A DNA stretch of 51,556 nt from Cetobacterium sp. ZOR0034 (GTDB lineage Bacteria > Fusobacteriota > Fusobacteriia > Fusobacteriales > Fusobacteriaceae): positions 1 to 51,556 of the forward strand of contig NZ_JTLI01000013.1 in the NCBI RefSeq assembly GCF_000799075.1, read 5' to 3'. This document shows positions 129-7,049 of the stretch, piece by piece. The translations under genes were made by a program, and so were the position numbers. Position 1 is the stretch's first letter, and the number at the start of each line of letters is the position of its first letter. The notes under the pieces were generated by a model. It was not told the origin of the DNA. It did no database searches and saw only the letters and a program-made list of their open reading frames with translations.

Positions 129-536
129 TTAATTATTTTTCTCTGCTACAACTTTTGCTAAAACTCCGTTTATAAATTCGTGAGATTTCTCATCTCCATA
201 TTTTTTAGCTAACTCTACAACTTCATTTACAACAATCTCTGCTGGAACATCTTCGAATAGAATTTCATACGTAGATATTTTTAATAACGCTTTTTCTACA
301 TTTCCAATTCTTTCTAAGCTCCATCCTGTTATATTATTTTTTAAAGTCTCTACAACTTTCTCATCGTTTAATGCCATACCTTTTGAGTATTTTACAATAA
401 ACTCCTTTTCATTTGTATTTAAGTTAGTTTCATCTCTTAGCATGTAATTCTCTAAAGTTTCGTCTATTTTAACTTCTGTTAACTCCGATTCAAAAACTAT
501 TTTAAATAACTCTTCTCTTGCTACTCTTCTACTCAT
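129..536 (-). CDS. nusB: Transcription antitermination factor NusB
   Basis: NusB binds boxA RNA together with ribosomal protein S10 and helps RNA polymerase read through in rRNA operons. The 135-residue all-helical sequence has the family's normal length, an N-terminal start MSRRVAREELFK and the characteristic C-terminal stretch ending in FINGVLAKV. The start has a clear AAGGAA ribosome site. It is the last gene of a minus-strand run after the Asp23/AmaP/DUF2273 genes, 13 bases beyond the DUF2273 stop, and is followed by an intrinsic terminator. An asp23-nusB linkage is known from Gram-positive genomes, which supports both assignments. Confidence 0.95.
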   Translation of the reverse strand: MSRRVAREELFKIVFESELTEVKIDETLENYMLRDETNLNTNEKEFIVKYSKGMALNDEKVVETLKNNITGWSLERIGNVEKALLKISTYEILFEDVPAEIVVNEVVELAKKYGDEKSHEFINGVLAKVVAEKNN

Positions 537-549
537 TACTGTTTCCTTT

Positions 550-762
550 CTAATCCTTTAATCTATTTAATATTTGTTTTTTTAACTTCTCCTGAAAATC
601 TCTATCTCCTAGTTTATATCCTACAAACGCTAAAATCAATATAAATATTGTTTTTAAAACTCCATACTCAACTAAAAGAATTCCAGATATTAATCCTAGA
701 ACAGCATAAAGATATCTTTTAAAATTAAGAATAAAGTTTTCAATAATTTTTTCTAACATCAT
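550..762 (-). CDS. DUF2273 small membrane protein of the Asp23/AmaP module
   Basis: This 70-residue protein has two hydrophobic segments (about residues 15-32 and 34-48) followed by a charged tail (RDFQEKLKKQ). This is the DUF2273 pattern, a family found with Asp23 and AmaP in envelope-stress operons of Gram-positive bacteria. Its biochemical role is unknown; a partner of AmaP at the inner membrane is a reasonable inference. It sits 11 bases after amaP and 13 before nusB, so co-transcription is likely. Two adjacent ATG codons follow the GGAGGA site, so the start could be one codon later. Confidence 0.8.
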   Translation of the reverse strand: MMLEKIIENFILNFKRYLYAVLGLISGILLVEYGVLKTIFILILAFVGYKLGDRDFQEKLKKQILNRLKD

Positions 763-773
763 TTTTGCTCCTC

Positions 774-1283
774 CTATTCAATTACATCCCTTTTTATTGA
801 TAATCTGGAAATTTTTACCTCTATATAATCAACCTTTAAATCTAGTTTTTCTTCTAAGTTACTCTTTATTAAATTCTGTATATCTACAGTTTTTGTTGAT
901 AAATTATTATTTGAAATCATATCTAAATTTAATTTAATAAAGTATTTGCTACCTCTATTCCCACAATCGATTTTTAATCCCTTTATATCACTATCTCTTG
1001 ATAGTATCTCTCTAATTAGATTTTTTACTGTATCTGTTGATATATGTACTGCACCATGTTCATTTTTTATAACATAATCTTTTTCTTTTGAAAATTTTGA
1101 TAATAATTTTAATACTGATATACATATGTAAGCTAAACATATATTAAAAAACACTACTTTAAATATAAGTGAGCTTGTATCTATTGTTGAAAAATATTGT
1201 GGCATTGTTATATAACCAATCCCTGCTACAGCCATAGTAAATATTCCTATCCATGCAAAGAAAAATATTATTTTTTTTATCAA
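774..1283 (-). CDS. amaP: AmaP-like membrane anchor for Asp23
   Basis: In Staphylococcus, AmaP anchors the abundant Asp23 protein to the cell membrane. Here the N-terminus holds two hydrophobic segments (about residues 4-26 and 38-58) and the cytosolic C-terminal half carries an Asp23/Gls24-like repeat beginning with GAVHISTDTVKNLI. I chose the TTG at 1283 because AGGGG lies eight bases before it; an in-frame GTG at 1292 has no properly spaced ribosome site. A hairpin separates it from asp23 upstream, and DUF2273 follows 11 bases downstream. The assignment rests on fold pattern plus context. Confidence 0.8.
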   Translation of the reverse strand: MIKKIIFFFAWIGIFTMAVAGIGYITMPQYFSTIDTSSLIFKVVFFNICLAYICISVLKLLSKFSKEKDYVIKNEHGAVHISTDTVKNLIREILSRDSDIKGLKIDCGNRGSKYFIKLNLDMISNNNLSTKTVDIQNLIKSNLEEKLDLKVDYIEVKISRLSIKRDVIE

Positions 1284-1308
1284 GAAACTCACCCCTGTAA
1301 GAAAGATT

Positions 1309-1330
1309 AGAGGCGTATCAAAACGCCTCT
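1309..1330. terminator. Hairpin between asp23 and amaP
   Basis: Perfect 8-bp stem AGAGGCGT/ACGCCTCT with loop ATCAAA. The T-rich run lies on the plus-strand side, so on the minus strand, where both neighbours are transcribed, it is not a classical intrinsic terminator. It may instead protect the 3' end of asp23 mRNA or partly attenuate transcription so that Asp23 is made in excess over its anchor. Confidence 0.5.
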
Positions 1331-1337
1331 TTTATTA

Positions 1338-1715
1338 TTATACTATCTCAATATCTTCGTGTCTATCCTCAAACTCTTCTGTTAAAATTTTAACATCTTG
1401 AACAAAAACATTTACCTCTACAACTTTTAAACCAGTCATTGTACTCACTGCTGTTAAAACACTCTTTTGAACATTTTGAGCTACTTCTGAGATTTGGTAT
1501 CCGTATTCTACTATTATATAGATTTCTACGCTACACTCTTTCTCTCCTACCTCAACTTTAACACCATTTGTAAGTCTTTTCTTTCCTAGCATTTTACTAA
1601 CTTCATCTGCTACTCCACCTGCTAGTTTATAAACTCCAGAAACATCTTGTGCTGCCTTTGCTGAAATCGTCTTTACTACATCATCTGCTATTTTTATATT
1701 TCCTAACTCGTTCAT
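1338..1715 (-). CDS. Asp23/Gls24 family envelope stress protein
   Basis: Asp23/Gls24 proteins are abundant cytosolic proteins held at the membrane and linked to alkaline or cell-envelope stress. The 125 residues cover one full domain: MNELGNIKIADDVVKTISAKAA, the GVYKLAG segment, a glycine-rich turn, then VEIYIIVEYGYQI and a C-terminal VVEVNVFVQDV strand, all typical. The start follows a strong GGAGGTG site. It is the first gene of the module with amaP, DUF2273 and nusB, with a probable promoter at 1734-1762. The unusual part is the context: a chiefly Gram-positive system in a cell that also encodes LPS machinery. Confidence 0.9.
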   Translation of the reverse strand: MNELGNIKIADDVVKTISAKAAQDVSGVYKLAGGVADEVSKMLGKKRLTNGVKVEVGEKECSVEIYIIVEYGYQISEVAQNVQKSVLTAVSTMTGLKVVEVNVFVQDVKILTEEFEDRHEDIEIV

Positions 1716-1781: not shown

Positions 1782-3128
1782 TTAATTTTTTTCAAAATTT
1801 TCTTCAATAAACTTAGTTGTAACTTTTCCACTTCTATATACTTTATTATCTAGAACTTCTAAATGGAATGGAATTGTAGTATCAATTCCCTCTATAATAA
1901 ACTCATTTAATGCTCTTTTCATCTTTTCAATTGCTTCTTCTCTAGTAATTCCGTGAACTATAAGCTTCCCTATCATAGAATCATAATATGGTGAAATCTC
2001 ATATCCTGCGTATGAATGAGAATCAACTCTTACTCCTGGTCCACCTGGAACGATATAAGTTTCTAACTTTCCTGGTGAAGGTAAAAATCCAGCTGTTGTA
2101 TCTTCTGCATTTATTCTGCACTCTATTGCATGACCAAATAACACAACATCTTCTTGAGATATATTTATTCTCTCTCCTTCAGCAACTTTTATTTGTAACT
2201 TAATTATATCTATTCCTGTTACCATCTCTGTAACTGTATGTTCAACTTGAACTCTTGTGTTCATCTCCATAAAGTAGAAGTTATCATCCTTATCCACTAA
2301 GAATTCTAAAGTTCCAGCTGAATCATAACTTATTGATTTAGCTAATTTTACTGCTGCTTCTCCCATAGCCTTTCTAACTTTAGAAGGTAACTTATAAGAT
2401 GGAGCTTCCTCTATTAGCTTTTGATGTCTTCTTTGAATCGAGCAGTCTCTTTCTCCTAAGTGAATTACATTTCCATGTTTGTCACCTATAATTTGAATCT
2501 CAACGTGTCTAGGATTTTCAACAAACTTTTCTATATACACATCTGGATTTCCAAACGCTGATTCTGCTTCTGTCTGAGCTGCGATGATTTTGCTTTCTAA
2601 CTCTTCTGGAGTTCTAGCAAGCCTCATTCCTTTTCCGCCTCCGCCCGCAGTGGCTTTTATCATAACAGGGTATCCGATTCTCTCTTCAACCTCTTTTCTT
2701 GCATCTTCTATGCTTCTAATTATTCCTGTTCCATTTGTCAATGGAACTTCATTTTCAATAGCAGTTTTTCTTGCTGTAGCTTTATCTCCCATACTTTCAA
2801 TCGCTTCTGGACTTGGTCCTATGAAAGTTATATTATGAGTTTGACATATTCTTGCGAATCTAGCATTTTCAGATAGGAATCCATATCCTGGATGGATTGC
2901 ATTTGCTCCTGTTATCTCAGCTGCAGCTAATATATTTGGTATTTTTAAATACGACTCTGTACTTAAAGGCCCCCCTATACATACAGCTTCATCTGCTAAC
3001 CTCACATGTAAGCTATCCTTATCCGCTTCTGAATAAACAGCAACTGTTTTTATTCCAAGCTCTTTTGCTGCTCTTATAATTCTAACAGCGATTTCACCTC
3101 TATTAGCAATTAATATCTTTTTAAACAT
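1782..3128 (-). CDS. accC: Biotin carboxylase (acetyl-CoA carboxylase subunit AccC)
   Basis: AccC uses ATP and bicarbonate to carboxylate the biotin carried by a BCCP, the first half-reaction of acetyl-CoA carboxylase in fatty-acid synthesis. At 448 residues it matches AccC length. It shows the N-terminal [16 protein letters not shown] motif, the ATP-grasp glycine loop GGGGKGMR, the [11 protein letters not shown] stretch and the catalytic [10 protein letters not shown] segment, so it should be active. It begins 13 bases after accB and shares its promoter. No carboxyltransferase subunit genes (accA, accD) are in the window. Its adjacent BCCP-like partner lacks the biotin lysine, so its real carrier may be encoded elsewhere. 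Confidence 0.96.
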
Positions 3129-3141
3129 AAAATCCTCCCGA

Positions 3142-3555
3142 TTATCTTGCTGTAGCCTTAACTTTTAATAAAACTTTACCATAATCAACTACTCCACCAT
3201 CTTTTACAGTTATCTCTAACACCTCTCCAGCTACAGTTGCTTTTAAAGGAGTTTTTAGTCCCATTACATGGATATAACCTAAATCTTGTCCAACTTTAAT
3301 TTTATCTCCAACTTTAACTGAATTTTCATAGAAATATTTTCCTATTCCTGTTGATAAGATATTTTTTACATTGTCCTCTTTTTTTGAAACTTCTTTAATC
3401 GGCTGTACAACCTCTTTTGGTACTACAACTTTTCTTTGTGGAGATTTCTTTATTTTTATTTTTAAATTTTCATTTTCCTCATAACTAATCTCTGTAAGTC
3501 CACACTCACTAAGTACGCTAATTAAATCTTCTATTTGAAACTCGTCTTTCTTCAT
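3142..3555 (-). CDS. accB: AccB-like carrier protein lacking the biotinyl-lysine motif
   Basis: The N-terminal 40 residues ([18 protein letters not shown]...) match the start of acetyl-CoA carboxylase BCCP, and residues 66-134 have the biotinyl-domain fold pattern ([15 protein letters not shown] ... [21 protein letters not shown]). At the hairpin where BCCPs have E-A-M-K-M, this protein reads H96-V-M-G-L-K101: the modified lysine is glycine (G99) and the nearest lysine is two residues later. The codons, read on the minus strand at 3253-3270, are unambiguous. The Pro/Ala-rich linker is short (residues 38-65). It is the first gene of an accB-accC pair with its own promoter. It may be a non-biotinylated regulator or scaffold of AccC, comparable to plant BADC proteins, or a diverged carrier. 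BCCP ancestry is clear; function is uncertain. Confidence 0.85.
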
Positions 3556-3582: not shown

Positions 3583-3611
3583 ATTTTAACATAATTTAAA
3601 AAATCATTCAA
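3583..3611 (-). promoter_or_regulatory. Probable promoter of accB-accC
   Basis: TTGAAT (3606-3611) and TAAAAT (3583-3588) on the minus strand are 17 bases apart and stand about 30 bases before the accB start. Confidence 0.6.
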
Positions 3612-3632
3612 GGTTACATTACAAGTGTAATT

Positions 3633-6600
3633 TTATCTAATTACTATACTTTTTTCACCCAATAACTCTTCAATTTTTCTTATTAAAGTTGGCGTTATTT
3701 CTACAGTTATTTTAGAATTTTTAACCTCTTTATTACCATCTATGTCGATAGCAAAACTTAAAGGTACCTCTCCTTTACTATTTAAAAGAAGCTCTTTCAA
3801 ACGACTATATTTATCTTTTGATTTTTCATTTATCAATATATACATCCGATTTCTTTTTGTAAATTCTATCGAATTCAGTGATTTTATATCTTTTACAACT
3901 ATTTTTTTATTTTCATTTCCATTAAAATAATCTACCTGAACTGTTCCATCTATTAAAACGGCTTTTCCTTCTAAATCAATATTCATCAAATCTCTATACT
4001 CTCTTGGAAAGATTATTCCCGATATTTGTTCATAATAGTCCTCTAAAATAAAGGTACACATCGTTTCTTTCGTTTTTTTAGTGAGTATTTTTTTCACATC
4101 CCTTAGTATACCATAAGTTTTTACTGTATGCTGAGAATTTTCTAATTTTACCTCTGAAATCTTATTCATTTTATAATTTTTTAATAACCACTCATATTTA
4201 TCTAAGGGATGAGCACTATAATAAAAACCTAAAAATTCTTTTTCTTTATCCAATTTTTCATCTGCTGTGAAATCAGATAGATCTGGTAAAACAAAATTTA
4301 CCATTTCAGATTTCGCTCCACCAAATAGGTTCATCTGCTGAATATCATCCTCTTTTATCTTTTTATTAGCATAATCTATAACTTTTTCTATCGATTCTAT
4401 TTTCTGTTTTCTATTTCCGGGAAGCGAGTCTAGTGCTCCTGAGTATATTAGAGCTTCTATATTTTTCTTATTTAAACCTTGCCCTCTCAATCTATAAATA
4501 AAATCTTCGTATCTTAAAAAATTTCCATTTTCTTCAAACTCAAATTTTATTTTTTCTGCTAAACTTTCTCCAACATTTTTTATAGCAGCTAAAGAAAATC
4601 TTATCCCGCCATTTTCAACTGTAAATTTAGAAACTGGATTATTCACGTCTGAAAGTTTTAAATCGATTTTATGAGCTTTCGCATCCTCTATATAAAATGC
4701 TACATTTTCAACATTACTTTTTTCTGATGTCATTATAGATGCATAGTATTCCTCTGGATAAAAATATTTAAAGTAAGCTGTCCAGTAAGCTATAAGAGCA
4801 TATGCCGCTGAATGGGATTTATTGAATCCATATCCTGCAAATTTATCAATTAAGTAGAATATCTCCTCAGCTTTTTCTTTTGTATATCCATTCTCAATAG
4901 ATCTCTGAACAAATTTCTCTCTATTTTCATCCATTATAGAAGCCTGTTTTTTTCCCATGGCTCTTCTTAATAAATCTGCTTCCCCTAATGAATAGTTAGC
5001 CATTATATTCGCTATTTTCATTACCTGCTCTTGATACAGAATAACACCATAAGTTTCCTTTAAAACTTTCTCTAAACTTTCATGTGGATACTTTATCTCC
5101 TCTAAGCCATTTTTACAATTTATAAAACTTTCTACCATTCCTGATCCTAAAGGACCCGGTCTATACAATGCTAATAAAGCTATTACATCTTCAAATCTTT
5201 CTGGTTTTAATTGAATCAAAATCTTTCTTATTCCTGTTGATTCTAATTGAAAGACACCTAGACTATCTCCTCTAGAAAGCATATCATAAACTTCTTTTTC
5301 GTTTAAAGATATTTTCTCTAAAGTTATATCTTTTCCTCTACTCTCTTTTATATACTCGATTGTTCTTTGAAGGTTTGTTAAATTTCTCAAACCTAAAAAG
5401 TCCATTTTTAATAGACCCAACTCCTCTAACTCTTTCATCTGATATTGAGTTGATACAGTATTATCTTTATTATCTCCATATAAAGGAACAACATCCATTA
5501 ACGGATCTTTAGTTATTACTACTCCTGCAGCATGTATTGAAGCATGTCTAACTTTATTTTCTAATCTTTGAGATAAATCAATCAAATTTCTAATCTCAGA
5601 GTCTTCAGAATAAATCTCTCTCAACTCAGAATTTTCTCTCAAAGCTTCTGCTAACGTTGAAAATGCTGGGATCAACTTAGCTATCTTATCAACCTTTGCC
5701 AAATTTACATCTAAAACCCTCCCAACATCTCTCAAAGCTGCTCTAGCTTTCATTCTTCCAAAAGTTATAATCTGAGCAACTTTATCCTCTCCATACTTTT
5801 TAGTAACATAGTCTATAACTTCACTTCTTCTCTCTTGGCAAATATCTATATCTATATCTGGCATTGAAATTCTCTCTGGATTTAAAAATCTTTCAAAAAT
5901 CAGATTATATTTTATTGGATCTAAATCTGTTATTTTCAATGCATATGCAACCAAACTTCCTGCCGCCGAACCTCTTCCAGGTCCAATTGGAATATTTTTA
6001 CCTTTCGCATAAGCTATGAAATCCCATACAACTATAAAATATTCCTCATATCCCATTTTCAAAATAACTTCTAACTCATATTCTACTCTTTTTAATAACT
6101 CTTCACTTAGTCCTGCTGGATACCTTTCAGCTAATCCTTTATAAACAATCTTTCTTAAAAATTCAGCAGAATTTTTTACACAACTAGGTATTTCATATTT
6201 AGGAAACTTAAGCTCTCCAAATTCTAAACTCAAATTACATCTATCTGCTATCTCCTCTGTTGTATCAATTGCTTCGATATATTCATCTCCTAAAGAACTT
6301 ATCATCTCCGCTCTACTTTTTAAAAATAACTCTTTTGTTTCGATCTTCATTCTATTATTATCTGCAACTTTTGCTCCAGTTTGAATACAGATAACTAAAT
6401 CTTGAAGAACATGATCTCCTTCATAAACATAATGAGTGTCATTAGTTGCAGCACATTTTAAACCATGCTTTTTGGCATATCTATTTAGCTCTCTATTTAG
6501 TTCTATTTGACCTTCAACTCCATTACCTTGAAGTTCAATATAAAAATTTTCTTTTCCAAATATATCTATATACTCATTTATCTTATTATCTATAATCTCT

Positions 6601-7049
6601 TCGGGTTCATTTCCTAAAATAGCTCTAGATATCTCTCCCTGCATACAAGCGGATAAAGCAATTATCCCCTCACTATGTGCTTTTAAAAACTCTTTATCTA
6701 TACGCGGTCTATAATAAAATCCCTTCAAAAATCCCGTCGATGATATCTTTAAAAGATTTTTATATCCCGTTAAATTTCTAGCTAATAATATAAGATGAAA
6801 ATTCCGCCCCTCTTTCTTATCCATAGCAAATTCAGAAACATAAGCTTCTGTTCCTATTATCGGCTTTATTCCTCTACTCATTGCACTTTTATAAAACTCA
6901 ATAGCTCCAAACATATTTCCATGATCTGTTATCGCCATTGCCCTCATATTCAATTCTTTAGCTCTATCTAAATATTCATCTATCTTTCCAACCCCATCTA
7001 GAAGACTGTACTCTGTGTGTAGATGCAAATGAACAAAATTTTTACTCAT
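3633..7049 (-). CDS. dnaE: DNA polymerase III alpha subunit DnaE
   Basis: Replicative polymerase catalytic subunit, 1138 residues, close to the E. coli length. Order: PHP domain (1-270), polymerase core with GPGRGSAAGS (355-364) and the catalytic PDIDID (396-401) and KMDFLGLRNL segments, helix-hairpin-helix region, then an OB domain (VKTYGILRDVKKI ...). The PHP domain keeps the metal-ligand pattern of Thermus DnaE: H9, H11, D42, E68, H85, C135, D204 and H206, several of which are lost in E. coli. It may therefore have metal-dependent 3'-5' exonuclease activity. The start overlaps the stop of the upstream MFS gene (ATGA), so translation is probably coupled. Confidence 0.97.
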   Translation of the reverse strand: MSKNFVHLHLHTEYSLLDGVGKIDEYLDRAKELNMRAMAITDHGNMFGAIEFYKSAMSRGIKPIIGTEAYVSEFAMDKKEGRNFHLILLARNLTGYKNLLKISSTGFLKGFYYRPRIDKEFLKAHSEGIIALSACMQGEISRAILGNEPEEIIDNKINEYIDIFGKENFYIELQGNGVEGQIELNRELNRYAKKHGLKCAATNDTHYVYEGDHVLQDLVICIQTGAKVADNNRMKIETKELFLKSRAEMISSLGDEYIEAIDTTEEIADRCNLSLEFGELKFPKYEIPSCVKNSAEFLRKIVYKGLAERYPAGLSEELLKRVEYELEVILKMGYEEYFIVVWDFIAYAKGKNIPIGPGRGSAAGSLVAYALKITDLDPIKYNLIFERFLNPERISMPDIDIDICQERRSEVIDYVTKKYGEDKVAQIITFGRMKARAALRDVGRVLDVNLAKVDKIAKLIPAFSTLAEALRENSELREIYSEDSEIRNLIDLSQRLENKVRHASIHAAGVVITKDPLMDVVPLYGDNKDNTVSTQYQMKELEELGLLKMDFLGLRNLTNLQRTIEYIKESRGKDITLEKISLNEKEVYDMLSRGDSLGVFQLESTGIRKILIQLKPERFEDVIALLALYRPGPLGSGMVESFINCKNGLEEIKYPHESLEKVLKETYGVILYQEQVMKIANIMANYSLGEADLLRRAMGKKQASIMDENREKFVQRSIENGYTKEKAEEIFYLIDKFAGYGFNKSHSAAYALIAYWTAYFKYFYPEEYYASIMTSEKSNVENVAFYIEDAKAHKIDLKLSDVNNPVSKFTVENGGIRFSLAAIKNVGESLAEKIKFEFEENGNFLRYEDFIYRLRGQGLNKKNIEALIYSGALDSLPGNRKQKIESIEKVIDYANKKIKEDDIQQMNLFGGAKSEMVNFVLPDLSDFTADEKLDKEKEFLGFYYSAHPLDKYEWLLKNYKMNKISEVKLENSQHTVKTYGILRDVKKILTKKTKETMCTFILEDYYEQISGIIFPREYRDLMNIDLEGKAVLIDGTVQVDYFNGNENKKIVVKDIKSLNSIEFTKRNRMYILINEKSKDKYSRLKELLLNSKGEVPLSFAIDIDGNKEVKNSKITVEITPTLIRKIEELLGEKSIVIR

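Follow-up and report, generated by a model that had tools for sequence, protein, structure and literature searches.

A lysine-less BCCP paralogue encoded beside accC in Fusobacteriota, a candidate non-catalytic subunit of acetyl-CoA carboxylase

Introduction

Acetyl-CoA carboxylase, a drug target, catalyses the step that commits carbon to fatty acids. We analyzed a window of 51,556 nucleotides (contig C13 of the 2.74-Mb, 98.5% complete assembly of Cetobacterium sp. ZOR0034) in which an AccB-like protein, encoded next to biotin carboxylase (BC, AccC), carries glycine at the position where biotin carboxyl carrier proteins (BCCPs) hold the biotinylated lysine. The locus raises the question of what such a protein, referred to below as pBCCP, does next to AccC, and which protein carries the biotin in this organism.

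Sequence and predicted structure of pBCCP

The gene and the two parts of it on which the argument turns are the following:

3142..3555, minus strand: pBCCP, a lysine-less AccB/BCCP paralogue of 137 aa (open reading frame and translation, PF00364 match, BCCP fold in AlphaFold2)
3253..3270, minus strand: hairpin-tip codons H96 V97 M98 G99 L100 K101 (translation, alignment, AlphaFold2)
3439..3555, minus strand: N-terminal helix and beta-hairpin, aa 1-39 (least nonsynonymous divergence; AlphaFold2 with modest pLDDT)

Translation of the reverse strand assigns Gly99 to a GGA codon at 3259-3261 and Lys101 to an AAA codon at 3253-3255; the tip reads HVMGLK and the E-x-M-K-M biotinylation motif (AMKL/AMKM) is missing. 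When pBCCPs were aligned with real BCCPs, the biotinyl-lysine column held K in 20/20 real BCCPs and G in 31/31 pBCCPs, which confirms the replacement of the lysine (HVMGLK versus EAMKM) that an earlier note on this DNA had read from the sequence. The domain is detected by the PF00364 profile (40.8 bits, cut-off 22.1), and TIGR00531, the equivalog model for functional BCCPs, scores it at 50.2 bits, below the cut-off of 115.2. We infer from the motif that pBCCP cannot be biotinylated.

We then modelled the window pBCCP with AlphaFold2 using a 31-row alignment. The pLDDT of the predicted biotinyl domain exceeded 90, and its strands 91-97 and 100-105 flank a turn at Met98-Gly99. The N-terminus (helix 8-17, strands 20-26 and 32-37) was less certain, with a pLDDT of about 62 for the hairpin, and the linker was floppy, for a whole-model pTM of 0.51. 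Foldseek retrieved BCCP domains as full-domain matches, among them Arabidopsis BCCP1 and the E. coli BCCP of 4hr7, a crystal of BC with BCCP (TM 0.82 on target). The fold of the biotinyl domain and the N-terminal segment of functional AccB/BCCP are retained in pBCCP by profile match, model, structural matches and conservation, and the description of both as well kept in the earlier note stands. True BCCPs have a thumb insertion, which pBCCP lacks in the window species and in near relatives of it and has in a shortened form in other species, so that the contacts made by pBCCP may differ from those of a real BCCP.

Conservation across Fusobacteriota

Profile searches yielded strong pBCCP matches in 81 of 98 Fusobacteriota genomes and a partial match in 1 more. 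Ten genomes, nearly all small and of Leptotrichiaceae type, had no match to either carrier, and the 6 others without a clear pBCCP match comprised 3 from a single genus and 3 of 62-92% completeness. The ten small genomes without any BCCP-type match indicate that the two carriers are mostly retained or lost jointly.

The tip glycine is fixed among the aligned orthologues: it was present in 54/54 distinct Fusobacteriota orthologous ORFs and was encoded by all four glycine codons (GGA 35, GGT 13, GGG 4, GGC 2). In the phylum-wide alignment of 31 sequences, G72, G99 and G110 were the sole invariant columns. Values of dN/dS between 0.09 and 0.24 within the genus point to purifying selection, and constraint is strongest over the first 39 residues (mean pN 0.029, the lowest in the protein). 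The Fusobacteriota pBCCPs form a single clade in the tree (support 99/90), which places a single origin of pBCCP at the base of the phylum. In one single-contig genome (G070, L074 4037-4261), an open frame of 74 aa covers the C-terminal part of pBCCP alone, by frameshift, error or truncation.

Gene neighborhood and upstream sequences

The genes around pBCCP in the window are arranged as follows:

129..536, minus strand: nusB (TIGR01951 above cut-off)
550..762, minus strand: DUF2273 small membrane protein (PF10031, 39 bits)
774..1292, minus strand: amaP, membrane anchor of Asp23-type proteins (NF033218 above cut-off)
1309..1330, minus strand: terminator-like hairpin past asp23, symmetrical and called on both strands
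1338..1715, minus strand: asp23 family gene (YqhY-like), third in the presumed operon (PF03780, E=5e-34)
1782..3128, minus strand: accC, biotin carboxylase (TIGR00514), beginning 13 bp past the pBCCP stop
3583..3611, minus strand: promoter-like TTGAAT-17-TAAAAT with TG before the -10, upstream of pBCCP
3618..3631, minus strand: operator-like palindrome ATTACACTTGTAAT, 76 bp upstream of the pBCCP start
3633..7049, minus strand: dnaE, the usual upstream neighbor of pBCCP (NF005298 above cut-off)

AccC is intact, as had been noted from the sequence, with 725 bits against a TIGR00514 cut-off of 626.5. Every one of the 20 Fusobacteriota pBCCP loci that we inspected with long flanks had the order pBCCP-accC-asp23; dnaE lay upstream in most of these, and amaP, DUF2273 and nusB were commonly downstream. 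The terminator-like hairpin standing past asp23 suggests that the three genes form an operon like accBC-yqhY of Bacillus. The accBC-yqhY operon is known in Firmicutes and stated also for Fusobacteria in a 2017 paper that counted the pBCCP locus as accBC-yqhY (PMC5437119).

Promoter-like sites in the region are as numerous as expected by chance; the one at 3583..3611 is nearly invariant across 10 species of the genus. The palindrome occurs in the form ATWACRNNYGTWAT 71-89 bp ahead of pBCCP in 16/30 relatives, and 96 kb of the same loci contained no other copy of this form. In the window, ATTACANNTGTAAT at 3618-3631 is a conserved operator-like palindrome directly upstream of the promoter-like sequence of pBCCP-accC-asp23. 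The window's own genome holds seven palindrome sites, no more than a backwards control. Two of these sites stand in tandem directly upstream of a gene of the FabK/NMO (nitronate-monooxygenase) family (L287 1501-1529; G000:C44:74158-74186), which scores below the FabK equivalog cut-off; this placement would fit, and hints at, a fatty-acid regulon.

A working carrier elsewhere in the genome

We searched the whole assembly for biotin/lipoyl domains and recovered a normal BCCP with the motif VEAMKMMNEV on contig C6, which passes TIGR00531 (119.2 bits, cut-off 115.2); its gene, accB, is preceded by folD and an ACT-domain gene and followed by a HlyC/CorC-type gene. A second biotin carrier, on C35, is of the sodium-pump decarboxylase type (LEAMKMEN). 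There is a single accC genome-wide (one full TIGR00514 match), the gene beside pBCCP, as well as one accD with adjoining accA on C2 and two birA-type ligases. The suggestion that a pseudo-BCCP sits beside AccC with the true carrier encoded elsewhere is thus borne out, both the second BCCP with an AMKM motif and birA being present. A genome without a real carrier, also considered, is wrong given the EAMKM protein on C6. Since accC is single and a normal BCCP and accDA are present, the lone AccC presumably serves the C6 BCCP, and pBCCP would be an extra, subunit-like protein.

The same division was found in other Fusobacteriota, in which pBCCP-bearing genomes have a real BCCP with EAMK(M/L) at folD-(ACT)-accB. 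Besides pBCCP, the window's own genome encodes a functional BCCP at another locus, BC and carboxyltransferase (CT), as expected of a subunit like the BADC proteins of plants. The ACT-domain gene that separates folD from the real accB (L001 820-1260) is retained in most fetched Fusobacteriaceae loci. One genome (G024, L090) encodes a further BCCP, with EAMKV, adjoining a second accC-like gene.

Proposed role of pBCCP and alternatives

Our preferred reading, to which we assign a probability of about 0.68, is that pBCCP belongs to acetyl-CoA carboxylase as a non-catalytic subunit that works like plant BADC, binding AccC and co-assembling with the real BCCP as a scaffold, a throttle or both. Made alongside AccC, pBCCP would dock on it through the N-terminal helix and beta-hairpin, and these elements would mix with those of the real BCCP in a hairpin-barrel or clamp assembly of biotin carboxylase dimers. 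It would in this way keep the BC subcomplex together and set the number of biotinylated arms per AccC, acting as a scaffold and a stoichiometric throttle of malonyl-CoA synthesis. In Chloroflexus, the N-terminal hairpin of BCCP tetramerises BC and the biotin core does not (PMC11077971), and it is by analogy with this hairpin that we read aa 1-39 of pBCCP as BC-contacting.

Alternatively, pBCCP could be a dedicated inhibitor in competition with biotinylated BCCP for AccC, lowering acetyl-CoA carboxylase activity under some condition and having no structural role. BADC proteins have been described as inhibitory competitors of BCCP for BC (PMC7712654, PMC11926652), and a biotin-free carrier would fill the site unproductively. 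However, in every Fusobacteriota locus examined with long flanks the gene stands together with accC, and pBCCP is thus probably made at a constant ratio to AccC, which is odd for a conditional inhibitor, and we consider this explanation unlikely. A scaffold is somewhat likelier than a pure inhibitor because pBCCP is seldom absent and its gene is linked to accC.

A mainly gene-regulatory protein, for example one sensing AccC or BCCP stoichiometry to autoregulate the operon, would fit the strong constraint on the N-terminal 39 aa and the conserved palindrome upstream, and E. coli AccB has been reported to autoregulate its operon. Profile scans, however, recognised no DNA-binding domain in pBCCP, and the biotin-domain fold and Gly99, which such a role would not need, are conserved too; we therefore regard this role as improbable.

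The earlier note had also raised a lysine shifted by two positions and still modified, in which case pBCCP would remain a carrier biotinylated on Lys101 (tip +2). This lysine is found in most species of the window's genus, but in just 25/54 orthologues overall, the others having D, N, A, R, S, Q, E, V or L, and this lack of conservation makes a shifted site unlikely. In the AlphaFold2 model Lys101 lies on a strand, away from the hairpin tip, biotin ligases are strict about the position of the lysine in the hairpin, and the genome already has a normal carrier, so that we give this possibility very little credence. Finally, a decaying relic, a sequencing error or a local mutation, which the kind of protein annotated (normally requiring the lysine) might suggest and which a normal AMKM in close relatives would have implied, has a negligible probability and is ruled out by the intact frame, the purifying selection seen in dN/dS and the glycine fixed in all 54 distinct orthologues.

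Comparison with known carriers and accessory subunits

The closest parallel to the proposed subunit is found in plants, in which BADC proteins, BCCP relatives without the AMKL motif, bind both BC and BCCP and act as an assembly glue or an inhibitor; they have been called unique to the plant enzyme (PMC11926652). Like BADC1-3 of the chloroplast heteromeric acetyl-CoA carboxylase, pBCCP is a BCCP relative that lacks the biotinylation motif and coexists with a functional BCCP, and the biotin carboxylase subunit would be its expected partner. Unlike BADC, pBCCP is bacterial and its gene is fixed beside accC; the two are likened by motif loss and gene content. On these grounds pBCCP looks like a bacterial, phylum-wide counterpart of plant BADC, and it probably arose from a duplication of BCCP independent of BADC.

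With functional bacterial AccB/BCCP (TIGR00531; E. coli BCCP, 4hr7/1bdo), pBCCP shares the fold with its N-terminal helix and hairpin, and it has the same operon position as accB in accB-accC(-yqhY) of B. subtilis; it differs by the glycine in place of lysine, the loss of the EAMKM context, the shortened thumb and the sub-cut-off score. The AccE/epsilon subunits of actinobacterial acyl-CoA carboxylases resemble the proposed pBCCP in being non-catalytic assembly subunits of a bacterial biotin carboxylase complex, but are to our knowledge not BCCP homologues, unlike pBCCP. Noncatalytic "glue" subunits are mentioned in the literature (PMC11926652). In the BC-BCCP fusion of Chloroflexus aurantiacus, the BC tetramer is built by the N-terminal hairpin; that protein differs from pBCCP in being fused and biotinylated on Lys553 (PMC11077971).

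In literature searches covering open-licence papers, we found no description of a bacterial lysine-less BCCP. A lysine-less BCCP that is phylum-wide means that the four-subunit enzyme of the textbooks does not hold for all bacteria and that genes annotated as accB and adjoining accC can be non-catalytic. The question of whether BADC proteins are inhibitors or glue also becomes testable in a simpler bacterial system.

Lysine-less BCCPs in other phyla

We placed on the alignment the BCCP-like ORFs from loci found by an AccC search (n=77). The tip residue was K in 75/77, G in one (Leptotrichiaceae, L099) and R in one (Elusimicrobiota, L147). Among the best-scoring BCCPs sampled outside Fusobacteriota, lysine was present in 38/41 ORFs placed on the alignment, and the exceptions directed us to Spirochaetota.

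Spirochaetota were recognised by the flagellar sheath family FlaA, which we take to mark spirochaetes and which was detected in 19/20 genomes tested and in 0/14 controls. In this phylum (L219-L235, L241, L247), lysine-less BCCPs mostly adjoin accC and have Gly (RVLG, MGVIEK), His, Asn or Gln at the tip, and most of the genomes concerned encode an EAMK BCCP elsewhere. An Elusimicrobiota MAG (Proruminimicrobium) has VAMRV (Lys to Arg) beside accC (L147 4550-4978) and a normal EAMKV BCCP elsewhere (L262).

In the tree, the detached catalytic BCCPs of Fusobacteriota cluster with those of Spirochaetota (94/94). The lysine may have been lost once or several times, since a single origin of all lysine-less BCCPs was neither established nor rejected (AU p value of 0.335, on 144 columns and with long branches). 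We tentatively propose, at slightly less than even odds, that an unrecognised two-carrier type of acetyl-CoA carboxylase is common to Fusobacteriota, many Spirochaetota and some Elusimicrobiota; in it, a detached catalytic BCCP would be combined with an obligatory lysine-less BCCP as a core subunit of the AccC complex. If this reading were true, BADC-type subunits would be a general solution that has arisen in bacteria and in plants, possibly repeatedly. In one further genome (G239, L191 1983-2411), we observed a BCCP with EAMNI, that is with Asn in place of Lys.
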